From contig JAUXXN010000073.1 in the NCBI GenBank assembly GCA_030684755.1, positions 1 to 16,478 on the forward strand: 16,478 bases of DNA, written 5' to 3'. The notes under the pieces were generated by a model, which ran no database searches, had not been told where the DNA came from, and saw only the letters and a program-made list of their open reading frames with translations. The position numbers were made by a program, and so were the translations under genes. Shown in pieces: positions 3,421 through 16,295 of this stretch (its first letter is position 1; each line of letters starts with the position of its first letter). This DNA comes from Hydrogenophaga sp. (lineage in GTDB: Bacteria; Pseudomonadota; Gammaproteobacteria; Burkholderiales; Burkholderiaceae_C).

Positions 3421-4698
3421 ATGAAATTTTCACGTTCAGCGACCAAAGCCCTGGCCGCCAGCACGCTGCTGTTGACCCTGGCTGGGTGCGCGTTTTCACC
3501 CGGGCCCCTGTTTGGCCCCGCGCTGCAAGGCCAAGGCGCAAACACCGCCTCAGAAACCACCGGCCAAGCGGCTCCCCCCAGCACCTTGGTGCGCTTGTTT
3601 CAAGGCAAAAGCAGTAGCATTGTCACAGGCACCAGCGCCCCCAACGCCCCCGCAGACCCCAACCTGCCCGACGCCCCACCCCCCGGCGTGCTGCGCCCCA
3701 TCACCCCCGACCTGATCCAATCCATTCAGCGCGACGCCCGCCAGGCCAACACCCTCGCCGCGCTGCAACCCCTGTTTGGCAAAGCCGGTGCCTACACCAT
3801 TGGTGTGGGCGACGTGGTTCACATCAACGTGTGGGGCCACCCCGAGCTGGTGTTGCCACCCGCAGGCAGCACCACCAGCGGCACCGAAGCCAGCAGCCAA
3901 TCGGGCGTCACCAACGGTTTCAACGTCAGCCCTGACGGCCTCATTCAGTTCCCCCTGATAGGCACCCTAAAAATTGCAGGCCTTACAGAAAACCAAGCCC
4001 GCCTTGAGCTGGCCAAGGCCCTCAAGCGCTACATTGTTGACCCCCAAATCACCCTGCGCGTGCAGGCTTACCGCGCTGGCCGCGTGTACATGGACGGCGA
4101 AGTGCGCACCCCCGGCCTGCAAGCCATCAACGACGTGCCCATGACCCTGCCCGAAGCCCTGAGCCGCGCTGGCGGCCTCACCGCCACGGCCGATCGCTCC
4201 CAGGTTTTCATCACCCGCGAAGGCGTTACCACCCCCATCAACTTGCTGAGCCTGTCGCAGCGCGGCATCAACCCTGCACAAATTTTGCTGAAAAATAACG
4301 ACTTGGTGCGCGTGGCCCACCGCGACGACGCCAAGGTGTATGTCATGGGCGAAGTGGTGCGCCAAGCCGCCTTGCCGCTGCGCAATGGCCGCCTGAGCCT
4401 GAACGAAGCCCTGGGCGAGTCTGGCGGCATCAACCCCACGTCGGGCGACCCCAAGCAAATTTTTGTCATTCGCAGCCGCTCCACCCAGCCCGCCGAGAGC
4501 GCCGCTGGCCAGCTGCCCGAAATTTTTCACCTCGATGCCCGCAGCCCCATGGGCTATGCCCTGGCCGAAGGCTTTGAGCTGCAAGCGCGCGATGTGGTTT
4601 ACGTCGACCCCGTGCCCCTGGTGCGCTGGAACCGCGTTATCAGCCTCATATTGCCCAGCGCACAGGCCGTCAACGTGACGCGCGACGCGCTGAACTGA
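3421..4698 (+). CDS. wza: Wza-type polysaccharide export outer-membrane lipoprotein
   Basis: This 425-residue protein would form the outer-membrane export channel for the polymer. The N-terminus is a lipoprotein signal with lipobox LAGC, cysteine at residue 23. A Pro/Ala-rich region follows, then the polysaccharide export domain (PF02563) starting near residue 125 with YTIGVGDVVHINVWGHPEL. Two SLBB-type domains follow, beginning near residues 221 (RVYMDGEVRTPG) and 305 (KVYVMGEVVRQA), each carrying the EAL...GGI/L turn. The C-terminal segment (DVVYVDPVPLVRWNRVISLI) fits the amphipathic membrane-spanning helix of Wza. Length is typical for betaproteobacterial EpsA/EpsE-type members and somewhat longer than E. 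coli Wza. No Shine-Dalgarno is obvious before the ATG. It heads the wza-wzb-wzc set, and the neighbouring phosphatase is 34 bp away. The equivalent names epsA and epsE are also used in betaproteobacteria. Confidence 0.93.
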   Translation: MKFSRSATKALAASTLLLTLAGCAFSPGPLFGPALQGQGANTASETTGQAAPPSTLVRLFQGKSSSIVTGTSAPNAPADPNLPDAPPPGVLRPITPDLIQSIQRDARQANTLAALQPLFGKAGAYTIGVGDVVHINVWGHPELVLPPAGSTTSGTEASSQSGVTNGFNVSPDGLIQFPLIGTLKIAGLTENQARLELAKALKRYIVDPQITLRVQAYRAGRVYMDGEVRTPGLQAINDVPMTLPEALSRAGGLTATADRSQVFITREGVTTPINLLSLSQRGINPAQILLKNNDLVRVAHRDDAKVYVMGEVVRQAALPLRNGRLSLNEALGESGGINPTSGDPKQIFVIRSRSTQPAESAAGQLPEIFHLDARSPMGYALAEGFELQARDVVYVDPVPLVRWNRVISLILPSAQAVNVTRDALN

Positions 4699-4732
4699 TG
4701 CCCTGTAACCCCAGCCCCGTTTTCTTTACCGC

Positions 4733-5191
4733 ATGAGCATTCAAAACGTCATGGCCGTGTGCATTGGCAATATCTGCCGCAGCCCGGTGGCTGAAGGCCT
4801 GTTAGCACAGGCGCTGCCCCAGTGCAAAGTGTGGTCTTCAGGCCTGCACGCTGTGGTGGGCGCTCCCGCCGAGCCCACCGCCCAGGCCCTGGCTTTAGAA
4901 GCGGGCATCAACATCAGCACACACCGCGCCCAGCAAGTTCAAGCCTGGATGTGCACCCAGGCCGACCTCATTTTGGTCATGGAAGCCAGCCACCAGCGCG
5001 AGTTGGCCCAGCGTTTCCCCCTGGCGCGCGGCAAAATCCGCCTGCTGGGCGAGTTTGGCACCGAATATGCTTCCACCCCTTACGACATTGCCGACCCCTA
5101 CCAGCAGCCCCGAGCCGCCTTTGAAGCCGCCCACACCGGCATTGCCCAAGGCGTGGCCCAGTGGGCGCGGCGCATCCGCCTCATTGGTTAA
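4733..5191 (+). CDS. wzb: Wzb-type low-molecular-weight protein-tyrosine phosphatase
   Basis: This 152-residue cytoplasmic phosphatase is expected to dephosphorylate the C-terminal tyrosines of the Wzc-like kinase encoded next, so cycling the export machine. The catalytic P-loop CIGNICRS is at residues 10-17, with nucleophile Cys10 and Arg16 of the CX5R motif. The general acid is Asp121 in the DP loop (YDIADPYQQP). Length is usual for LMW-PTPs. The start ATG places the P-loop at the family's normal distance from the N-terminus. The position between wza and wzc is the classic order of group 1 capsule and EPS operons. In that context a capsule phosphatase is much more likely than an arsenate reductase or a generic LMW-PTP. 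Confidence 0.93.
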   Translation: MSIQNVMAVCIGNICRSPVAEGLLAQALPQCKVWSSGLHAVVGAPAEPTAQALALEAGINISTHRAQQVQAWMCTQADLILVMEASHQRELAQRFPLARGKIRLLGEFGTEYASTPYDIADPYQQPRAAFEAAHTGIAQGVAQWARRIRLIG

Positions 5192-5278
5192 CCGCTCGCA
5201 CCACAAAGCCCCACAACGCTAAAGCCCAGAAGCTGACCCACAGGCTTTGCCCAAATCTATTTTCTGTTGCCGTTATTC

Positions 5279-7507
5279 ATGACACCCAACACGCCCCAGC
5301 TGCCCGCAGCCCCCTCCGCCAACGAAGACGAGATTGACCTTCTTGGCCTGCTTGATGTGTTGTTGGAAGCCAAATGGCTGGTGGCAAGCGTCACCGCCGC
5401 CGCCTTGTTGTTGGGCGGCAGTTACGCCTTTTTAAGCCGCCCGGTGTACCAAGCCAACACCCTGTTGCAGGTGGAAGACAGCAAGCCTGGTGCAGCCGGC
5501 GCCTTGGGTGAAGCCGCCAGCTTGTTCGACATCAAAAGCCCCGCCAGCGCCGAAATGGAAATTCTGCGCTCCCGCCTGGTGGTGGGCAAAGCCGTGGACG
5601 ACCTGCAACTGCACACCACAGCCCGCCCCAAGCGTTTTCCGCTGCTGGGCAACTGGCTGGCCAGCCGGGCCCAAGACTTGGCTGAGCCCGGCTTCTTGGG
5701 CATGGACGGCTATGTGCACGGCACCGAAAGCATCCAAGTGGGCTTGCTTGAAGTGCCCCCCGAGCTAGAAAACCAGCCCCTTACCCTGGTCACCACCAGC
5801 GGCGGCTTCATCTTGCAAGGCCCAAGCGGCGAAACACTGGCCGAAGGCCCAGTGGGCGAACCCCTCACCTGGGGCGAAAACGCCACCGCAGGCCGCGTGG
5901 TGGTGCATGCGCTTGAAGCCAAGCCCGGCGCCCATTTCACCCTGTTGCGCCAAAGCCGCCAGGCCGTCATCGAGCGGCTACAAGCCCAGCTCGGCATTGC
6001 CGAAAAAGGCAAACAATCGGGCGTGATCTCCATCACCCTGCAAGGCACCGACGATGTGCAAATCACACAAGTGCTGCAGGCGGTGGGCAGCAACTACGTG
6101 CGCCAAAACGTGGAGCGCAAATCTGCCGAAGCCGACAAATCTCTGGACTTTTTGAGCGGCTTCTTGCCCACTCTGAAAAAGCAGCTGGAAGCTTCTGAAA
6201 CCGCCTTTAATCAGTTTCGCAACCAAAAAGGCACCTTCGACCTGAGCACCGAAGGCCAACTGGCTCTTAGAACAACAGTTGAATTGCAAACGCAACTCTT
6301 GCAGCTGCAACAAAAACGCCGCGAACTCAGCAGCCAATTCACCGCCTCGCACCCCAGCATTCAGGTCATTGACGCGCAAATTGCCACCCTCACCAAAGAA
6401 ATCAGCGGCTTTAACAACCGCGTGAAAGTCTTGCCCAACGTTGAACAAGAGTTGCTGCGCCTCACGCGTGATGTGAAGGTCAACAGCGAGCTATACATCA
6501 ACCTGCTCAACAGCGCCCAACAACTGCGCTTGGTGCGCGAAGGCAAAGTGGGCAATGTGCGCGTGGTGGACCAAGCCGTTACCCAGCAAAACCCCGTGGC
6601 CCCCAAGCGCCAGCTTATTGTGGCGCTGAGCGCTTTGCTGGGTTTGTTTGGCGGTGTTGCCCTGGCTTTTGCCCGCAATGCGCTGAATTCCGGCATTAAA
6701 GACAGCGCCGAAATTGAAAGCCACACCGGCCTGAACGTGTTTGCCACCGTGCCTCACAGCGTGGTGCAGGCCAAGCTGTACGAAAGCATCACCAACAAAG
6801 CGCCCGGCCAACATCTGCTGGCCATTTCTGCACCTGAAGACCCCGGCATTGAAAGCCTGCGCAGCCTGCGCACCGCGCTGCAGTTTGCGCTGCTGGACGC
6901 ACGCAACAACGTGGTGTTGTTCACAGGCCCCACCCCCAGCATTGGCAAGTCCTTTGTGTCGTCCAACTTTGCAGCGGTGTTGGGCGCCGGGGGCAAACGC
7001 GTGTTGCTGATAGACGCTGACATGCGCAAAGGCTACCTGAACCAATATTTTGGCCTGAGCCGTGGCCCCGGCCTGAGTGAACTGGTGGCCGGCAGCCACA
7101 CCTTTGAACAAGTGGTGAAGCGCAATGTAGCCCCGGGTGTGGACATCATTCCCACCGGTGCTCTGCCGCCCAACCCCGGCGAACTGCTTTTGTCACCCAC
7201 CACCGTGCAACTGGTTCAAACCCTATCGGCCCAATACGACTTGGTCATCATCGACACCACGCCCGTGCTGGCCGTGTCAGACACCCAGGTGCTCGCCCCC
7301 GTGGCCGGCACCGTGTTCCTCATCGCCAAAGCCAACGTCACCGCCATTGGTGAAATTCACGAATCGGTCAAGCGCCTGCAACAATCGGGTGTTAACGTGA
7401 AAGGCGTTGTGTTCAACGACTTCAAAGTAGACAAACGCCGCTACGGCGGTTACGGCTACCGCTACAGCCGCTACCGCTATACCAACTACAAATACGGCCA
7501 AAGCTAA
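5279..7507 (+). CDS. wzc: Wzc-type tyrosine autokinase / polysaccharide co-polymerase
   Basis: This inner-membrane protein of 742 residues controls chain length and couples polymerisation to export. It has an N-terminal Wzz domain (DEIDLLGLLDVLLEAKWL, then a transmembrane helix at about residues 35-52) and a long coiled periplasmic part. A GNVR-type region ends near GKVGNVRVVDQAV, followed by a second transmembrane helix (LIVALSALLGLFGGVALAF) and a cytoplasmic BY-kinase domain. That domain shows Walker A GPTPSIGKS with Lys557, Walker A' VLLIDADMR (Asp579, Asp581) and Walker B LVIIDTTP (Asp659). The tail carries eight tyrosines between residues 722 and 739, the expected autophosphorylation cluster and target of the adjacent phosphatase. 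An in-frame TTG at 5267 would add four residues; I prefer the ATG at 5279, though neither has a clear Shine-Dalgarno. All catalytic motifs are intact. Confidence 0.94.
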   Translation: MTPNTPQLPAAPSANEDEIDLLGLLDVLLEAKWLVASVTAAALLLGGSYAFLSRPVYQANTLLQVEDSKPGAAGALGEAASLFDIKSPASAEMEILRSRLVVGKAVDDLQLHTTARPKRFPLLGNWLASRAQDLAEPGFLGMDGYVHGTESIQVGLLEVPPELENQPLTLVTTSGGFILQGPSGETLAEGPVGEPLTWGENATAGRVVVHALEAKPGAHFTLLRQSRQAVIERLQAQLGIAEKGKQSGVISITLQGTDDVQITQVLQAVGSNYVRQNVERKSAEADKSLDFLSGFLPTLKKQLEASETAFNQFRNQKGTFDLSTEGQLALRTTVELQTQLLQLQQKRRELSSQFTASHPSIQVIDAQIATLTKEISGFNNRVKVLPNVEQELLRLTRDVKVNSELYINLLNSAQQLRLVREGKVGNVRVVDQAVTQQNPVAPKRQLIVALSALLGLFGGVALAFARNALNSGIKDSAEIESHTGLNVFATVPHSVVQAKLYESITNKAPGQHLLAISAPEDPGIESLRSLRTALQFALLDARNNVVLFTGPTPSIGKSFVSSNFAAVLGAGGKRVLLIDADMRKGYLNQYFGLSRGPGLSELVAGSHTFEQVVKRNVAPGVDIIPTGALPPNPGELLLSPTTVQLVQTLSAQYDLVIIDTTPVLAVSDTQVLAPVAGTVFLIAKANVTAIGEIHESVKRLQQSGVNVKGVVFNDFKVDKRRYGGYGYRYSRYRYTNYKYGQS

Positions 7508-8941: not shown

Positions 8942-9916
<975 letters not shown>

Positions 9917-9937
9917 AGCATCTTGAACCACCCAGCC

Positions 9938-10531
9938 ATGAGCTACACCGTACACCCCAGCGCCATAGTGGACGAAGGCGCACGCATTGGCGCCGGCAGC
10001 CGCGTCTGGCACTTTGCCCATGTATGCGGCGGTGCCCAAATAGGCCAAGGCGTTTCTTTGGGTCAAAACGTGTTCGTGGGCAACCAAGTGGTCATTGGCG
10101 ACCGCTGCAAAATTCAAAACAACGTCAGCGTGTACGACAACGTCACACTTGAAGACGGCGTGTTCTGCGGCCCCAGCATGGTGTTCACCAATGTGTACAA
10201 CCCCCGCGCCTTGGTTGAACGCAAGAGCGAATACCGCCATACCCTTGTCAAAAAAGGGGCCACTCTGGGAGCCAACTGCACCATCGTTTGCGGCACTACC
10301 GTGGGCGAATACGCATTTGTGGGCGCGGGTGCAGTCATCCACAAAGACGTGAAGCCCTACGCTCTCATGGTGGGCGTGCCTGCCCGCCAAGTGGGCTGGA
10401 TGAGCCAGCACGGCGAAAAGCTCAACCTGCCCTTAACCGGCAATGGCCAAACCACTTGTCCAGCCACTGGTGTGCGCTACACACTGCAAAATGGTGTTTT
10501 AACCGCCGAGGAGCCTGACCATGCAAGTTGA
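9938..10531 (+). CDS. wbpD: UDP-GlcNAc3NA N-acetyltransferase (WbpD/WlbB, left-handed beta-helix)
   Basis: This 197-residue acetyl-CoA-dependent enzyme should acetylate the 3-amino group made by WbpE, giving UDP-GlcNAc3NAcA. The sequence is a run of hexapeptide repeats (for example [20 protein letters not shown] and [20 protein letters not shown]), typical of left-handed beta-helix acyltransferases. The signature [10 protein letters not shown] and the C-terminal [15 protein letters not shown] also match WbpD/Wlb[10 protein letters not shown] tail follows. A TTG at 9923 would add five residues; the ATG at 9938, giving MSYTVHPSA, is preferred. The last 11 bases overlap the start of the antitoxin-like gene. 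In P. aeruginosa the next gene would be wbpE directly, so the inserted gene is unusual. Confidence 0.92.
10508..10513 (+). promoter_or_regulatory. Strong Shine-Dalgarno inside wbpD for the antitoxin-like gene
   Basis: GAGGAG ends 7 bases before the ATG at 10521 and lies within the last codons of wbpD. It supports the small overlapping gene being translated, probably coupled to wbpD termination at 10529-10531. Confidence 0.65.
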
Positions 10532-10841
10532 AGCCATCTACAACCAGGGCAACATCCAACTGTTGCAGCCCCTGCACCTCAAACGCAACAACTTTCGCCT
10601 GGTGGTCAACGTGCCCGATGAAGAAATTGCAGCGGCACCCCTGCCCGTGTACCAGTCAGAAACCCAAGTCAACCAGCAGCCAGCCATGTTGTCTTTCGCG
10701 GACACAGTGGAACAAATTTTGGCCCCCTACCGGCAAATTCTGAACGCCCCCCCAGCCACCGAACCCATGGACTACCAAGCCATCTGGGAAGAACACCTGC
10801 TACAAAAGTACCTTGCCAGCCATGAAAAACCTGATCTTTGA
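10521..10841 (+). CDS. Putative VapB-like antitoxin (DUF104-like)
   Basis: This 106-residue protein begins with [20 protein letters not shown], the short beta-rich pattern (AIYxxGxIxxLxPLxL, then a VxVxVPDEE segment) that I associate with DUF104 (PF01954)/VapB-like antitoxins encoded beside PIN-domain toxins. The rest is a Pro/Gln-rich linker and a C-terminal helix ([19 protein letters not shown]) that could bind and block the toxin, as VapB tails do. It has a strong Shine-Dalgarno, overlaps wbpD by 11 bases and overlaps the PIN-fusion gene by 20 bases. That is the usual antitoxin-first, translationally coupled order of type II modules. The family call is from recognition by eye. An alternative is an uncharacterised small partner protein of the fusion enzyme. 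Confidence 0.62.
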
Positions 10842-12387
10842 TGTCAATGTACTGGTCAATTGCTGGGCAAAAGCACCTTCTGGCGCAGCCACTGCCCAGC
10901 TGCTGGATGCCACGCAGCACGCTTCAGTCAAACGCTGGGTGGCTGCCTCGTCATTGCCTACGTTGGCTTACGTGGCCGGTACCGTGCTCAAGCGGCAGGG
11001 GTTTGACCCCAAAATTGTGTCTCAGCAACTGGTACCACAGCTCATGGCCCATTTGCTGAGCAGCGTGGAGGTACTCAGCAACTTTGGTTTTGAGCAAACT
11101 GCGGTTTACCAACAAGCACGCGACTTTGAAGACGCACAAATAACCGCAGCCGCCCGAGCCTTGAGCGGCCAGCCGGTGTGCGTGGTCACAGAAGACCAAC
11201 AATTTGACACCCTGGGCGAAGAAGTGTTTGCCCTGTCACCGGTCCAAGCTTTGGCTTGGCTACAGGCACCCGCCGCACCACCCACGCAAGACAATCCGCT
11301 GCCATTCATCGACCTGGCTAGCCAGCAAGCTCAATTGCGCCCACAACTTGAGCGCGGCATAGAAACCATGCTGCGCCACGGCCAATACATCCTAGGCCCC
11401 GAAGTGGCCGAGCTGGAAGAAAAGCTGTGCGCCTACACTGGTGCCAAACACTGCATCACCGTGGCCAACGGCACCGACGCCCTGCAAATAGCCCAAATGG
11501 CACTGGGCATTGGCCCTGGTGACGAGGTGATTACCCCCGGCTTTACCTACATAGCCACCGCCGAAACCGTAGCCCTACTGGGGGCCAAACCGGTGTACGT
11601 GGATATTGATCCACGAACCTACAACCTTGACCCCGCGCTGCTAGAAGCCGCCATTACCCCGCGTACCAAAGCCATCGTCCCGGTCAGCCTGTACGGCCAG
11701 TGCGCTGACTTTGATGCAATCAACGTCATAGCGGCCAAATACGGCATTCCAGTCATTGAAGACGCAGCGCAAAGCTTTGGCGCCACCTACAAAGGCCGCA
11801 AAAGCTGCAACCTCAGCACCATAGCCTGCACCAGCTTTTTCCCCAGCAAGCCGCTGGGCTGCTATGGCGATGGTGGCGCCATCTTCACCAACGACGACGA
11901 ACTGGCCAAGGTGATGCGCCAAATTGCCCGCCACGGGCAAGACAGGCGATACCACCACATACGCGTGGGCGTGAACAGCAGGTTAGACACTTTGCAAGCC
12001 GCTATTCTGCTGCCCAAGTTGGCGGTTCTGGATGAAGAAATGGCACTGCGCAACCAAGTGGCGGCGCGCTACACCCAACTGCTGAACCAGGCGGGCATCA
12101 ACACCACGCCGCATGTTGAACTCCACAACACAAGCGCTTGGGCGCAATACACCGTGCGGGTGGATAATCGAGAACAAGTGCAGAAAAGCCTGGCAGCAGC
12201 AGGTATTCCGACTGCTGTGCATTACCCCATTCCGTTAAACAAGCAGCCCGCTGTAGCTGATGCCCAGGTAGTCCTGCCATTCGGTGATAATGTTGCGGTT
12301 AAGGTTCTAAGCCTACCGATGCATCCATATATAACCGCTGACCAGCAGGGAAAAGTGGTTGGTACATTAAAAGAATACGGAGGCTAG
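10822..12387 (+). CDS. wbpE: PIN-domain (VapC-like) protein fused to WbpE aminotransferase
   Basis: One uninterrupted frame of 521 residues joins two unrelated modules. Residues 1-148 look like a PIN_3/VapC-type RNase domain. They show LIFDVNVLV with Asp7, then DFEDAQITAAA (Asp101, Asp104), then VVTEDQQFD (Thr123, Asp125), ending ALSPVQALAWL. The position where many VapCs carry Glu appears to be Thr47. A Pro/Ala linker (149-158) leads to a complete DegT/DnrJ/EryC1 PLP aminotransferase (159-521), closely like P. aeruginosa WbpE: FIDLASQQAQ, GQYILGPEV, ANGTDALQ, PVIEDAAQSFGA, and FFPSKPLG with the PLP lysine at 343. It should aminate the 3-oxo UDP-GlcNAcA made by WbpB. WbpE alone is about 359 residues, so the N-terminal extension is the oddity. 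No ATG with a ribosome site lies in the linker; in-frame GTG (11182, 11224) and TTG (11251) codons lack clear Shine-Dalgarno sequences. The ATG at 10822 was chosen over a TTG at 10813. Codon use becomes less GC-rich near the 3' end. Confidence 0.88.
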   Translation: MKNLIFDVNVLVNCWAKAPSGAATAQLLDATQHASVKRWVAASSLPTLAYVAGTVLKRQGFDPKIVSQQLVPQLMAHLLSSVEVLSNFGFEQTAVYQQARDFEDAQITAAARALSGQPVCVVTEDQQFDTLGEEVFALSPVQALAWLQAPAAPPTQDNPLPFIDLASQQAQLRPQLERGIETMLRHGQYILGPEVAELEEKLCAYTGAKHCITVANGTDALQIAQMALGIGPGDEVITPGFTYIATAETVALLGAKPVYVDIDPRTYNLDPALLEAAITPRTKAIVPVSLYGQCADFDAINVIAAKYGIPVIEDAAQSFGATYKGRKSCNLSTIACTSFFPSKPLGCYGDGGAIFTNDDELAKVMRQIARHGQDRRYHHIRVGVNSRLDTLQAAILLPKLAVLDEEMALRNQVAARYTQLLNQAGINTTPHVELHNTSAWAQYTVRVDNREQVQKSLAAAGIPTAVHYPIPLNKQPAVADAQVVLPFGDNVAVKVLSLPMHPYITADQQGKVVGTLKEYGG

Positions 12388-12544
12388 GATGTAATTGTAT
12401 ATGTGGCAACCGCATTCAATTGAAGCCACCTACGACCACGTTCGCTTCACAGTCAATATAAAAATCCGAACTGGTTCAAGCAAAAAATGATCTTGAGTCA
12501 CCGCAGTATGCGCGTTTCATATTATTTAAAATTGGAATACATGC
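12388..12544. other. AT-rich gap at the compositional junction before wzx
   Basis: This 157-bp stretch is the longest gap in the right half of the window and the point where base composition has clearly shifted. I see no gene, no hairpin with a T tract and no convincing -35/-10 pair. TATAAA at 12457-12462 and TTGAGT at 12493-12498 are isolated elements without properly spaced partners. It may be scar sequence from a cassette exchange. Confidence 0.5.
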
Positions 12545-13780
12545 ATGGCAATAGATAGATATTGGCGCAATGTTGGATCCGTACTAACTGGTGCGGTCGT
12601 GGCACAGATAATCCCCATCGTTGGGACTTTGGTTATAGCACGTCAATATGCACCTGCCGAATTTGGCATTTTTGCTGCATGGCTTGGCATTGTGTATTTT
12701 ATTGGTGTGTTATTAACAGGTCGGTTCGAGACAGCATTTGCAATTGTTCCAGATGGTGAGCCACGGCGTATTGCTGTAATAACTACTGTCGTTACTGCAA
12801 CCCTCGCAGCTTTTGTAGCTGCGGTAGTATGCAGTTTTATCTTCCGACATCAACCGAGTATCGCTGAGCGTCAGCCAACTGAATTGGTAATTCTCCTGAT
12901 TCCGGCTGCACTTGCAGTTGCGTTGGCCCAAATATGGCAATCGTGGGCTGCAGCAGAAGGGAATTATCGCAAACTTTCATACATGCGGATTGCACAAGCA
13001 GCGTCTATAACATTAGGGCAAATTACTGCTGGTTTCATCAGCCCTTCAGCGGCAACGCTAGCTATAGCGCACATTGTTGGTGTAATGGTCGGCATAGCAC
13101 TATCGGCCTATATAATTCCCCCTGGTAGGTTCCCTAGGAAACAAGCATTAAAGTCCATGCTGAACTTCTGGTCTCAGCATCGTCGCTTTCCTATTTTTTC
13201 CCTGCCCGCAGATGGAATCAAAGCTGCTGCCGCCCAGCTTCCTGTCATCCTTATTGCGGCGCGCTTCGGATCAGAAATTGCCGGACTACTTGCCTTGACA
13301 ATGCGTACCTTGGGTGTACCAATTGGGTTGCTTGGTAGATCTGTACTCGACGTTTTCAAACGTCAAGCGGCTGCAACATATCTGGAACAAGGCGAATGCC
13401 GTACCGACTATATGCGCACATTTCGTGTTCTTGCGATCGCCTCTATCGGATTCAGTGTGGTGTTGGCCAGCATTAGCGAGTCATTCTTTGCGATGGCCTT
13501 TGGTGAAAACTGGGTGGGAGCCGGAACAATTGCACTTTGGCTTCTCCCTCTCTTTGCGCTAAGATTCATAGCGAGTCCATTGAGCTATATGGTTTACATT
13601 GCAGGCAAGCAGCATGTCGATCTCATATGGCAAGCCACCCTTCTTGCAGTAACTTTTGCTGCCCTCAATATTCCCCTCCGTTATGATGTTGCCCTGCAGG
13701 CATACAGCGCTGGCTACAGTTTGTTATACATCGTTTACCTAGTGATGTCTTATCGTTTCAGTCTCGGAGTCTCTAGATGA
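12545..13780 (+). CDS. wzx: Wzx-type lipid-linked oligosaccharide flippase
   Basis: This 411-residue, very hydrophobic membrane protein should move undecaprenyl-diphosphate-linked repeat units across the inner membrane. Hydrophobic stretches are spread over the whole length, consistent with about 12 helices. The start (GSVLTGAVVAQIIPIVGTLV, then ARQYAPAEFGIFAAW) is the typical N-terminus of the polysaccharide flippase family (PF01943/PF13440), including the RxYxPxxFG motif after helix 1. A polymerase (Wzy) is unlikely because of this motif. An overlapping ATG at 12541 stops after five codons, so 12545 is the start; its ribosome site is weak. The stop overlaps the hisH start (ATGA at 13777-13780). 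Codon use is less GC-rich than in wza-wbpE, as is usual for serotype-specific genes. The same gene stands before hisH and hisF in the P. aeruginosa B-band cluster. Confidence 0.87.
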   Translation: MAIDRYWRNVGSVLTGAVVAQIIPIVGTLVIARQYAPAEFGIFAAWLGIVYFIGVLLTGRFETAFAIVPDGEPRRIAVITTVVTATLAAFVAAVVCSFIFRHQPSIAERQPTELVILLIPAALAVALAQIWQSWAAAEGNYRKLSYMRIAQAASITLGQITAGFISPSAATLAIAHIVGVMVGIALSAYIIPPGRFPRKQALKSMLNFWSQHRRFPIFSLPADGIKAAAAQLPVILIAARFGSEIAGLLALTMRTLGVPIGLLGRSVLDVFKRQAAATYLEQGECRTDYMRTFRVLAIASIGFSVVLASISESFFAMAFGENWVGAGTIALWLLPLFALRFIASPLSYMVYIAGKQHVDLIWQATLLAVTFAALNIPLRYDVALQAYSAGYSLLYIVYLVMSYRFSLGVSR

Positions 13781-14388
13781 TTGCAATCATTGATTACAAC
13801 ATTGGAAATATTGCGGCTGTCGCGAACATGCTGCGTCGAATTGGTGTACCCTGCAGAATTACTGCCAACCCGTCTGAGGTCAAAGAGGCGAATCGAATCA
13901 TCTTGCCAGGTAATGGTTCATTCGATGCATGCATGCACAACCTCCGTGCGAGCGGTTTGATTCCCGTGCTTGAAGATAAAGTCCTGAACAACGGTGTGCC
14001 TTTGCTGGGCATTTGCGTAGGCGCTCAAATGCTCGGAACCGGTAGCGAAGAAGGGCAGGAACGCGGATTGGGCTGGCTTGATATGAGGGTGCGTCGCTTC
14101 CCAGACCTAGCTGGGTTGAAGGTGCCTCACATGGGTTGGAACCAAGTGACACCACAGCAGCCAAACAACGTCCTTACTCAAGAAATGAATGAGGGCACCC
14201 GTTTCTATTTCGTACACAGCTACTTCATGGATCCTGCTAACAAAGACGACGTACTGCTGCAAGCAAATTATGGTGTTGAATTCGCTGCAGGTGTATGCAG
14301 AGGAAATATTGCGGGCGTTCAATTTCATCCGGAAAAAAGTCACCGATTCGGCAAGCAGCTTCTGACTGCTTTTGGAAAGGGTAAATGA
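13777..14388 (+). CDS. hisH: HisH-type glutamine amidotransferase for sugar amidination
   Basis: This 203-residue class I glutaminase resembles the HisH subunit of imidazole glycerol phosphate synthase. It should release ammonia from glutamine and pass it to the HisF-like partner. The catalytic triad is present: Cys80 in GICVGAQML, and His184 and Glu186 in QFHPEKS. The oxyanion-region motif is PGNGSFD. In this context (next to wzx, hisF and wbpG) it corresponds to P. aeruginosa HisH2, which supplies ammonia to WbpG for acetamidino-sugar synthesis, rather than to histidine biosynthesis. The start codon overlaps the wzx stop by four bases, and the next gene starts immediately after its own stop, which implies tight coupling. 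Confidence 0.92.
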   Translation: MIAIIDYNIGNIAAVANMLRRIGVPCRITANPSEVKEANRIILPGNGSFDACMHNLRASGLIPVLEDKVLNNGVPLLGICVGAQMLGTGSEEGQERGLGWLDMRVRRFPDLAGLKVPHMGWNQVTPQQPNNVLTQEMNEGTRFYFVHSYFMDPANKDDVLLQANYGVEFAAGVCRGNIAGVQFHPEKSHRFGKQLLTAFGKGK

Positions 14389-15153
14389 ATGTACCGTGCA
14401 CGCGTGATACCCTGCCTTCTGGTTCGTGGAAATGGTCTTGTTAAGACACGGAAGTTCAAAGATGCTGTTTACATTGGTGATCCGGTCAATGCGGTGCGCA
14501 TCTTCAGCGAAAAGGAAGCGGACGAAATCGTTGTCCTGGATATCGATGCTTCACGCGAGGGGCGCGAACCCAATTACGAATTGATTGCCGAAATGGCAGG
14601 CGAGGCCTTCATGCCCGTAGCATATGGGGGGGGGGTGCGTACGCTGGAGCAAATCCGTCGTTTGATTCGCTCTGGTGTGGAAAAGGTTGTTATTAATACA
14701 GCGGCTACCGTATCAACTGACAGCATTCGCGCTGCGGCGGATGTGTTCGGTAGCCAAGCTATTGTGGGCGCTGTGGATGTCCGGCGCAAGCTGTTTGGTG
14801 GCTATGCTGTAGTGTCCAAGTCCGGCTCGGTTGAAACAAAACTGAATTTGCAACAGCACATGCAAAATCTTGTCGAAGCCGGAGTGGGTGAGCTATTGAT
14901 CAATGATATAGATCGAGACGGAACCATGGTGGGCTATGACATGGCGTTGGTCCATAGTGTGGCGCGGGCGACGGTCCCCGTGGTGGTGTGTGGTGGTGCA
15001 GGTACGCTTGCGCATTTGCGTGAGGCGGTGCGTAATGGTGGCGCTTCGGCCGTTGCAGCGGGCAGTATGTTTGTATTCCACGGCAAGCACCGGGCAGTGC
15101 TGATCAATTACCCCAAGGTAGGGGAACTTGAAAAACTCTTTACTGAAGGATGA
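14389..15153 (+). CDS. hisF: HisF-type ammonia-channel partner (HisF2), not a histidine enzyme
   Basis: This 254-residue TIM-barrel protein is of the HisF family. In true HisF the catalytic acids are Asp11 and Asp130 (Thermotoga numbering). Here the first site reads VIPCLLVRG, with Leu at position 11, while Asp130 (VGAVDVRRK) remains. The phosphate-binding and barrel motifs persist (VLDIDAS, YGGGVRTLEQI, INDIDRDGT, CGGAGTLAHL). The lost Asp matches HisF2-type proteins in O-antigen clusters, which appear to serve WbpG by channelling ammonia rather than forming IGP. It begins directly after the hisH stop and overlaps the wbpG frame by ATGA (15150-15153). The YGGG motif is encoded by three GGG codons plus the G of GTG, making a G10 tract. 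Confidence 0.92.
   Translation: MYRARVIPCLLVRGNGLVKTRKFKDAVYIGDPVNAVRIFSEKEADEIVVLDIDASREGREPNYELIAEMAGEAFMPVAYGGGVRTLEQIRRLIRSGVEKVVINTAATVSTDSIRAAADVFGSQAIVGAVDVRRKLFGGYAVVSKSGSVETKLNLQQHMQNLVEAGVGELLINDIDRDGTMVGYDMALVHSVARATVPVVVCGGAGTLAHLREAVRNGGASAVAAGSMFVFHGKHRAVLINYPKVGELEKLFTEG
14626..14635 (+). repeat. G10 homopolymer tract inside hisF
   Basis: Ten consecutive G encode residues 80-82 (three GGG codons) and the first base of the next Val codon. Slippage by one base would shift the frame about one third into hisF. In this window Gly is mostly encoded by GGC or GGT, so three GGG in a row stand out. It is a candidate phase-variable site, or simply a conserved GGG motif with unlucky codons. 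Confidence 0.9.
15145..15150 (+). promoter_or_regulatory. Shine-Dalgarno that decides the wbpG start
   Basis: GAAGGA lies 8 bases before the ATG at 15159 but overlaps the ATG at 15150, so the downstream ATG is favoured. The site lies within the last codons of hisF. Confidence 0.55.
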
Positions 15154-15158
15154 ATTAT

Positions 15159-16295
15159 ATGAGATATCAACGTTGCACGCGGTGCGTGATGGACACCACC
15201 GACCAAAAAATCACCTTTGATGCGCAAGGTGTTTGCAACCATTGCCGCCAGTTTGAAGAAGTTACCCGTAAGCGCTGGTACCCAAACTCCGAAGGAGCGC
15301 GTCTGTGGGCTGCGTCCTTGGAAGAAATAAAGACTGCCGGTAAAGGGCAGGAATACGACTGCATCATTGGTCTGAGTGGAGGGGTGGATAGTTCTTATTT
15401 AGCCATAAAGGCGCACGAGTGGGGGTTGCGCCCGCTGGTGATGCACGTGGATGCAGGCTGGAACAGTGAGTTAGCTGTGGCCAATATCGAAGCAATCGTT
15501 AAGCACTGCAGCTATGACCTGCACACCCATGTAGTGGATTGGGAGGATATGCGTGACTTGCATCTAGCCTATTTGCGCGCCGGTGTATCCAATCAAGACG
15601 TAGCCCAAGACCACGCGTTTTTTGCAGGGCTTTATCACTTTGCAACTCGTAATAAAGTTCGGTATGTGCTGTCGGGTGGTAACCTAGCGACGGAGAGTAT
15701 CTTTCCCACATCGTGGCAGGGCAGCGCGATGGATGCTATCAACCTCAAAGCTATCCATAAAAAATATGGCGAGCGTAAACTTAAGAATTACCAAACAATT
15801 AGTTTTTTTGAGTATTACTTTTGGTATCCACTAGTCAAACGGATGCGGGTTTTGCGTCCGCTCAATTACATGCACTACAATAAAATGGAGGCGCTGCAAG
15901 AATTGGAAGAAACAGTCGGTTACAAACCATATCCACGTAAGCATGGTGAATCGGTATTTACGAAGTGGTTTCAGAATCATTATCTTCCAGTTAAATTCAA
16001 TATGGATAAACGTCTGCCCCATTTGTCCAGCATGATTGTCTCTGGCCAAATGATGCGTGAAGATGCGTTGCACAAGTTGGAAGAGCCCTTGTACGCACCG
16101 GCAGATCTAGAGATTGATATTGATTACCTGTGCAAGAAGCTGCGTATTTCACGCCAAGAATTTGACGGTATCATGGGCGTCGAGGTCCATGATTATTCCG
16201 ATTTTCCTAATTGGGACGGGCTTTGTGAGTCGGCACTTAATGTAAAAAAAATCATGAAGAAAATCTCTGGGTTTGATTTCAAAGCTTACTCTTAA
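15159..16295 (+). CDS. wbpG: N-acetyl-sugar amidotransferase (WbpG type, PP-loop)
   Basis: This 378-residue enzyme should activate an acetamido group with ATP and use ammonia from HisH/HisF to form an acetamidino group, as WbpG does for UDP-ManNAc3NAmA in P. aeruginosa. The N-terminus has two CxxC pairs (Cys6/Cys9 and Cys26/Cys29) that probably bind zinc, as in the family. The PP-loop ATP-pyrophosphatase motif SGGVDSS is at residues 73-79 in IIGLSGGVDSSYLAIKAHEW. Further family-like segments are MHVDAGWNSELAVANIE and LSGGNLATESIFPTSW. Length agrees with WbpG (about 377). The ATG at 15150 overlaps the hisF stop and is possible, but GAAGGA at 15145-15150 is correctly spaced only for the ATG at 15159. 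GC content is lower than in the left half of the window. Confidence 0.92.
   Translation: MRYQRCTRCVMDTTDQKITFDAQGVCNHCRQFEEVTRKRWYPNSEGARLWAASLEEIKTAGKGQEYDCIIGLSGGVDSSYLAIKAHEWGLRPLVMHVDAGWNSELAVANIEAIVKHCSYDLHTHVVDWEDMRDLHLAYLRAGVSNQDVAQDHAFFAGLYHFATRNKVRYVLSGGNLATESIFPTSWQGSAMDAINLKAIHKKYGERKLKNYQTISFFEYYFWYPLVKRMRVLRPLNYMHYNKMEALQELEETVGYKPYPRKHGESVFTKWFQNHYLPVKFNMDKRLPHLSSMIVSGQMMREDALHKLEEPLYAPADLEIDIDYLCKKLRISRQEFDGIMGVEVHDYSDFPNWDGLCESALNVKKIMKKISGFDFKAYS

Follow-up and report, generated by a model that had tools for sequence, protein, structure and literature searches.

The window, i.e. the entire 16,478-nt stretch of Hydrogenophaga DNA analysed in this study, carries an open reading frame in which a PIN_3 domain is joined to a complete WbpE-type aminotransferase, directly preceded by a small antitoxin-like gene. 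We regard it as probable that this arrangement represents a type II toxin-antitoxin (TA) module of the PIN_3 kind that was incorporated into a wbp-type polysaccharide operon, with its toxin fused to WbpE. The anatomy of the locus lends good support to the view that a putative TA module is fused to an enzyme, and suggests that a metabolic operon can take up TA modules as integral parts. Such modules are usually seen as separate, easily lost two-gene units, whereas here the toxin half would belong to an enzyme of the operon, with the antitoxin alongside. The relevant features, all located on the forward strand, are as follows.

8945..9916, +, gene for a WbpB-like dehydrogenase in the same operon
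9923..10531, +, gene for a WbpD-like acyltransferase, immediately preceding the antitoxin-like gene; in 10 of the 13 fusion loci, including the window, a homologue is found immediately upstream of the unit
10521..10841, +, antitoxin-like gene (106 aa) with a conserved N-terminus and a C-terminal tail, sharing 11 nt with the preceding gene and 20 nt with the start of the fusion
10822..11265, +, PIN_3 domain, residues 1-148 (Pfam match 4-126), according to Pfam and the predicted structure
10840..10842, +, Asp7, the first PIN-site acid, present without exception in the 25 aligned fusions
11122..11133, +, Asp101-Phe-Glu103-Asp104 (DFED) motif of the PIN site, according to the alignment
11194..11196, +, Asp125, fourth acid position; 27 of the 28 free PIN_3 toxins have Asn here
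11266..11298, +, Pro/Ala-rich linker, residues 149-159, with no nearby start codon that has a Shine-Dalgarno-like motif
11299..12387, +, complete WbpE-type PLP aminotransferase, residues 160-521 plus stop, according to Pfam and the alignment to a solved WbpE

The fusion frame and its product

The frame at positions 10822-12387 is open without a stop over 521 codons, or encodes 524 aa should the TTG at 10813 serve as start, and comprises the PIN_3 domain followed by the complete aminotransferase. An earlier note on this DNA, made from the letters alone, had claimed such an in-frame fusion, and the claim was borne out by the frame itself, by Pfam matches to PIN_3 and DegT and by the occurrence of the architecture at 13 loci. 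The PIN_3 model (PF13470; cut-off 27) matched residues 4-126 with 27.8 bits in the whole protein and yielded 31.1 bits when residues 1-148 were scanned alone, so that the domain search proposed in the note upheld the PIN assignment; residues 179-516 matched DegT_DnrJ_EryC1 with 405.7 bits. Over 25 fusions (E<=0.001), PIN_3 was detected in 23 and DegT in all 25. Three PIN types could be distinguished: type A resembles the window (DFEDAQ), type B has DPEDEQL and a DKHWLAALA pattern, and type C is represented by the loci L111 and L127, with a DegT part that is just about 39% identical to that of the window. The type-B protein of L007 scored 24.8 with PIN_3, slightly under the cut-off of 27, and the type-C protein of L127 gave no PIN_3 match at E<=0.5.

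The AF2 model of the fusion, based on an alignment of 25 sequences, had a mean pLDDT of 79.1. Within its PIN part the pLDDT of ten-residue blocks ranged from 74 to 92, mostly from 82 to 92, and the strands and helices follow a PIN-like order, the reference for which is the order of elements that we take to be that of the PIN fold. Fold searches with the whole model returned two PDB match lists, both filled by the aminotransferase.

The two parts might also arise as separate products by a frameshift, a missing stop or separate translation, the natural products then being a PIN toxin and a separate aminotransferase. We consider this highly improbable, as an uninterrupted PIN-DegT frame is present in all 13 loci and 19 further full-length fusion proteins are on record. 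The TTG that lies 18 codons upstream of the junction in the window would permit separate translation; it is the sole start-type codon within the 20 codons before the junction and is not accompanied by a Shine-Dalgarno-like motif, in agreement with the note, which had seen no good internal start. A start codon with such a motif near the junction was found in none of the 13 fusion loci, an in-frame ATG, GTG or TTG of some kind in nine of them, and a Met within the 20 residues preceding the WbpE start in 4 of 41 database proteins. Some metagenome proteins (P0080, P0081, P0102 and P0138) appear to be frameshifted in or just past the PIN domain, by sequencing error or true decay, as would also be expected of separate products.

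Recurrence and distribution of the fusion

The search for other PIN-DegT fusions that the note had recommended was productive. Fusions were found at 13 loci, the window included, with pairwise identities of at most 81%, and a protein database contributed 19 full-length fusion proteins, which are at most 80.5% identical to those of the loci and none of which is the same. Among the best 80 genome-contig loci, five showed a full-length match to the fusion (Halomonas lysinitropha, two Rhodoferax metagenome-assembled genomes (MAGs), a Betaproteobacteria MAG and a 'Deltaproteobacteria' MAG) and 75 matched WbpE only, as anticipated by the note, which had described WbpE homologues as normally stand-alone proteins. 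An assembly artefact or a chance open frame was ruled out, since the same architecture occurs with different sequences at 12 other loci, including that of the named Halomonas isolate, in five of the best 80 loci at full length and in the 19 full-length proteins, none identical to the loci. None of the 75 unfused WbpE loci, of which one (L010) holds just 39 bases upstream, was matched by the PIN or antitoxin HMMs at E<=0.01.

Genome searches at different taxonomic levels revealed the fusion in 2 of 399 genomes at the family level, where four other genomes of the same genus gave no match, in 2 of 399 at the order level (the window's genome and G062), in 3 of 369 at the class level (the window's, G1235 and G1241) and in 5 of 398 at the phylum level (the window's, G557, G323, G499 and G470). 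The unit is accordingly rare, scattered and sporadic. In addition, 67 shorter PIN proteins of types A and B were collected, in 22 of which the start of WbpE is visible. According to their source names, single PIN fragments stem from Gammaproteobacteria, Desulfatiglandaceae, Rhodocyclaceae and Nitrosomonas, the last two being known as PIN fragments alone.

Searches of phages with the window PIN and of plasmids with the L007 PIN gave no match, nor did PADLOC when applied to six proteins. A sequence search of the PDB with PIN or antitoxin profiles returned low scores only and no PIN or antitoxin match; the A4 profile matched a repeat protein (BURRH) at 2e-08, all single stretches being weak. No published description of a PIN-DegT fusion was found in the full-text literature, a scope outside of which most subscription journals and bioRxiv preprints lie.

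An antitoxin-like gene precedes the fusion

The open reading frame at 10521-10841 was absent from the note's account. Its deduced protein begins with MQVEAIY and has an N-terminus that appears AbrB/AF2212-like. An antitoxin-like frame of 84-106 aa lies immediately upstream of the fusion in 12 of the 13 loci, separated by a gap of up to 6 nt or overlapping by up to 20 nt, the fusion start codon of L003, L005 and L108 (probably TTG) being placed only approximately. L112 is the sole fusion locus lacking the antitoxin; the gene upstream of it extends into the fusion frame and leaves no room for one.

Altogether, 57 proteins including the window's own were recovered as relatives of the antitoxin-like protein at E<=0.01, one of which (P0035) is named a predicted AbrB/MazE-fold antitoxin by its source. 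An alignment of 23 chosen rows showed strong conservation at the N-terminus and variation at the C-terminus. The window protein had no Pfam match. The AF2212 model (PF01954) gave no match in 22 of 23 scanned relatives, the window included, and an E-value of 0.0014 in the remaining one, while the antitoxin of L126 reached 0.028.

Two further observations concern type-C loci. Positions 1-118 of L111, just upstream of the type-C antitoxin gene, seem to encode the C-terminal end of another antitoxin-like frame (..EEILAEAFMEKYAK), which may be left over from a former cassette. In L127, a HipA-like gene (PF07804, E 1.9e-42) and a small HTH-looking gene occupy positions 4493-5911 directly upstream of the antitoxin/PIN::DegT unit, which would place two toxin-antitoxin modules in tandem within a sugar cluster.

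Conservation of the PIN active site

The note had assigned Asp7, Asp101, Asp104 and Asp125 to the PIN site. All four are present in the window, and D104 and D125 also occur in most relatives, but the list was incomplete and E103 has to be added, as D7, D101 and E103 are invariant in the 25 aligned fusion proteins. In a larger set of rows, which were sorted by hand and of which the type-B part includes fragments, frameshifted pieces and at least one type-A-looking row (P0129), D7 was found in all 31 type-A rows; among the 65 type-B rows it occurs in 56, the others being eight gaps and one S, so that 56 of the 57 with a residue keep it. The respective numbers were 30 of 31 and 54 of 65 (6 gaps) for E103, and 26 of 31 and 51 of 65 (6 gaps) for D104.

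The PIN domains of the type-B relatives are under purifying selection, with dN/dS values of 0.11 (L006/L110) and 0.24 (L006/L007) compared with 0.09 and 0.08 for DegT. All other computed pairs have a PIN dS above 1.8 or saturated and are less reliable; this applies to the pairs with the window (PIN dN/dS 0.18-0.34) and to those with L112 (0.30-0.34 at a dS above 2, little above the 0.20-0.29 of DegT).

These data bear on the idea, also raised in the note, of a retired toxin, the PIN fold of which would persist merely as a structural tail of the enzyme, chaperoned by the antitoxin. In the window PIN, N13 and E124 take the place of the D and R found in each of the 28 free toxins, and A49 occupies the second acid position; P0011-P0013 have lost D104 (A at position 104), and L112 is both decayed, with Asn replacing D7 and D101 and Leu replacing D104, and devoid of the antitoxin. 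These deviations are countered by the retention of D7, E103 and D104 in most rows of types A and B, by the type-B dN/dS values of 0.11-0.24 and by the variability of position 49 among free toxins as well. A49 was also dropped as a mark of a dead nuclease, as it falls within the range of the 28 free PIN_3 toxins (D in 9, H in 7, A in 4, F in 4, others in 4), of which 18 have A, H, F, N, S or Y and 10 have D or E at this position. Decay of the site and loss of the antitoxin are not strictly linked, because L126 with N at 104 and L127 with N at 101 both keep the antitoxin. Retirement is thus quite unlikely for the family, and conceivable for the window copy in view of N13 and E124.

Co-inheritance of the antitoxin tail and the PIN domain

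A comparison of pairwise similarities at the 12 loci with an antitoxin indicated that the two ends of this protein follow different partners. The last 42 residues track the PIN domain (r 0.90; 0.88 given DegT, with 0 of 5000 permutations as high), and the first 36 residues track DegT (r 0.87; 0.86 given PIN, 1 of 5000 permutations). With the 10 WbpE-type loci alone, the correlation of C-terminus and PIN was again 0.90 (0 of 5000), and that of N-terminus and DegT was weaker (0.53; 117 of 5000).

In the WbpE tree, the type-A locus L004 clusters with the type-B loci L006, L007 and L110, with support values of 96 and 93 in two trees. The antitoxin tail and the PIN domain therefore seem to have been exchanged as a cassette inside the operon, on closely related WbpE sequences. 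This bears on a regulatory role, according to which the PIN head would cut or bind the operon mRNA, or together with the AbrB-like protein sense the amount of WbpE, in order to adjust operon expression, the pair no longer being a toxin pair. The tracking of the DegT background by the antitoxin N-terminus, the mostly conserved PIN acids and the location of the cassette in the middle of the operon, without a separate promoter-like site, are compatible with such a role, the last point being uninformative alone as only 1.2 sites are expected by chance. A cassette of antitoxin C-terminus and PIN that is seemingly exchanged as a unit (L004 versus L006, L007 and L110) is, however, a better fit to a swappable toxin pair, and a loose criterion detects a small upstream frame in each of the 28 free PIN_3 relatives, the relaxed tail pattern described below being present in 27 of these frames. 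A regulatory head is consequently considered unlikely.

In the 28 free-standing PIN_3 relatives with available loci, the loose criterion was a small frame of 45-200 aa ending between -80 and +45 nt from the PIN gene. DUF6364 was detected in all four of these upstream frames that were scanned, and a KLTLRL-like strand in 23 of the 28. A C-terminal tail of the form H[LI]xxK[YHF] is present in 20 of the 28, or in 27 with a relaxed pattern. The same tail was found in 5 of 6 fused antitoxins of the window-like type A (6 of 6 relaxed), in 0 of 4 of type B (0 of 4 relaxed) and in 0 of 2 of type C (1 of 2 relaxed), compared with 0 of 801 control frames of 60-120 aa (1 of 801 relaxed). As the pattern was picked after the tails had been seen, the evidence lies in the contrast with the control frames and not in a p-value. 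Since the tail is common to type A and the free PIN_3 pairs, the type-A antitoxin, and this type only, looks like the toxin-binding tail of the free pairs placed on another N-terminus.

Concerning the origin of the fusion, trees were calculated from 93 of 138 rows in one case and from 61 and 52 of 138 rows, thinned by hand, in the others. A single clade of all 29 fused rows was rejected (p-AU 1.35e-61), while a single clade of the WbpE-type fusions alone was not rejected (p-AU 0.113). L111 and L127 each adjoin an unfused relative, and the tree of 61 rows implied six changes (at least five by the starred branches). As the fused enzymes do not form one clade, more than one origin of the fusion is probable; a single early acquisition followed by repeated losses is formally still conceivable.

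The aminotransferase and its operon

The WbpE half aligns to residues 2 to about 346 of the solved WbpE of P. aeruginosa and is 75% identical over its full length to the PDB entries 3nu7 and 3nu8 in the Foldseek alignment. K343 (11848-11850), which corresponds to the PLP lysine K185 of P. aeruginosa WbpE, does not vary among the 25 aligned fusions. In the window's genome, which is 82.6% complete, no WbpE match other than the fusion was found at E<=1e-20, and the enzyme half is therefore probably needed. The fusion is likewise the sole such match in three of the eight other carrier genomes searched (Halomonas, G323 and G499), and the remaining five contain 2 to 7 DegT-type matches. A second, unfused WbpE relative (55%) is present in the L112 genome.

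With neighbours that we take to be WbpA/B/D, Wzx, HisH2/HisF2 and WbpG, the fusion presumably lies in a wbp-type operon. No sigma-70-type promoter-like site was found at positions 9900-12560 of the window (1.2 expected by chance), and the antitoxin-fusion pair may therefore rely on the promoter of the upstream operon; the self-regulated promoter that is usual in TA modules is thus not seen here. The GC content decreases from 0.54-0.58 (wbpA to wbpE) to 0.46-0.54 in the four genes 3' of the fusion (12545-16295), which may mark a patchwork polysaccharide cluster.

A probable toxin-antitoxin module built into an enzyme

Two characteristics of type II TA modules are evident in the unit, namely a small gene directly upstream in the same operon (12 of 13 loci, with the 20-nt overlap in the window) and a C-terminus matched to the toxin, as judged from sequence: its similarity tracks the PIN domain, and the type-A tail is common to the free pairs. 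Regarding a DNA-binding antitoxin N-terminus, weak AF2212-like matches were the only indication, along with 0 promoter-like sites versus 1.2 by chance. Several observations weigh against the TA reading, namely the lack of a Pfam match for the window antitoxin, N13 and E124 in the window PIN, the imperfect link between site decay and antitoxin loss (the latter seen at one locus), the absence of the strict tail pattern from types B and C, the missing promoter-like site and the sporadic occurrence within the genus.

On this basis, the following mechanism can be proposed. The small upstream gene would encode the antitoxin, with an AbrB/AF2212-like N-terminus and a C-terminal tail gripping the PIN domain, and the toxin PIN would be synthesised as the N-terminal portion of the WbpE aminotransferase encoded in the operon. 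Both proteins would be made from one mRNA by coupled, overlapping translation, the antitoxin just before the fusion. DegT enzymes form dimers, and each WbpE dimer would carry two PIN domains that are kept inactive by the antitoxin. If the locus were lost, replaced or shut off, the presumably labile antitoxin would decay first and the PIN RNase of the longer-lived toxin-enzyme would be set free. As the toxin shares its polypeptide with an enzyme that is needed, it would be difficult to delete without loss of that enzyme, and the module would be unusually hard to shed. The addiction role suggested in the note gains weight from the upstream antitoxin-like gene, the C-terminus tracking the PIN, the tail common to free PIN_3 pairs and the purifying selection on type-B PIN domains, and would still depend on a PIN that acts as an RNase and an antitoxin that inhibits it.

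A more speculative proposal, which we regard as doubtful, assigns the aminotransferase the role of carrier and sensor of the tethered toxin. Lost, replaced or blocked surface-sugar synthesis, for instance by cluster exchange or phage interference, would disturb the antitoxin-PIN-WbpE complex and unleash RNA cutting, and the antitoxin tail and PIN would constitute an 'allele' that is subject to rapid exchange while the enzyme itself is conserved, so that clusters arriving with another allele would not be neutralised.

The putative TA module is of wider interest as it recurs across several bacterial groups with an apparent exchange of the part that confers TA specificity. It offers a direct way to ask whether TA modules lend stability to surface-polysaccharide clusters or provide a coupling between RNA cutting and the synthesis of surface sugars. 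Moreover, database records labelled merely 'aminotransferase' can conceal a toxin-like domain.

Comparison with known systems

Among the closest known systems are the free DUF6364-PIN_3 pairs, which have in common with the window a PIN_3 domain with D7, E103 and D104, a small gene directly upstream and the H[LI]xxK[YHF] tail. Their PIN is a separate protein of about 130-150 aa, whereas that of the window is fused to WbpE, and the N-terminus of their antitoxins is ribbon-helix-helix-like (DUF6364 in the 4 of 28 that were scanned), whereas that of the window appears AbrB/AF2212-like. The WbpE of P. aeruginosa (PDB 3nu7, 3nu8) and 75 of the best 80 loci have neither the PIN head nor the antitoxin.

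AbrB-superfamily antitoxins beside PIN genes have already been published (PMC2701414). The COG2880/DUF104 (AF2212) antitoxins treated there likewise are small AbrB-superfamily-like proteins adjoining a PIN gene, and section 9 of that paper describes no enzyme fusion for these systems. The window protein itself differs from AF2212 (PF01954) in that it had no match to the model, as was the case for 22 of the 23 proteins scanned, the window's counted.

The window differs from VapBC in the Pfam model of its toxin, PIN_3 instead of PF01850. VapC toxins are free-standing small proteins, whereas the window holds a single 521-codon frame. Common to both are the order of antitoxin followed by PIN, the overlapping genes and the acidic PIN site.
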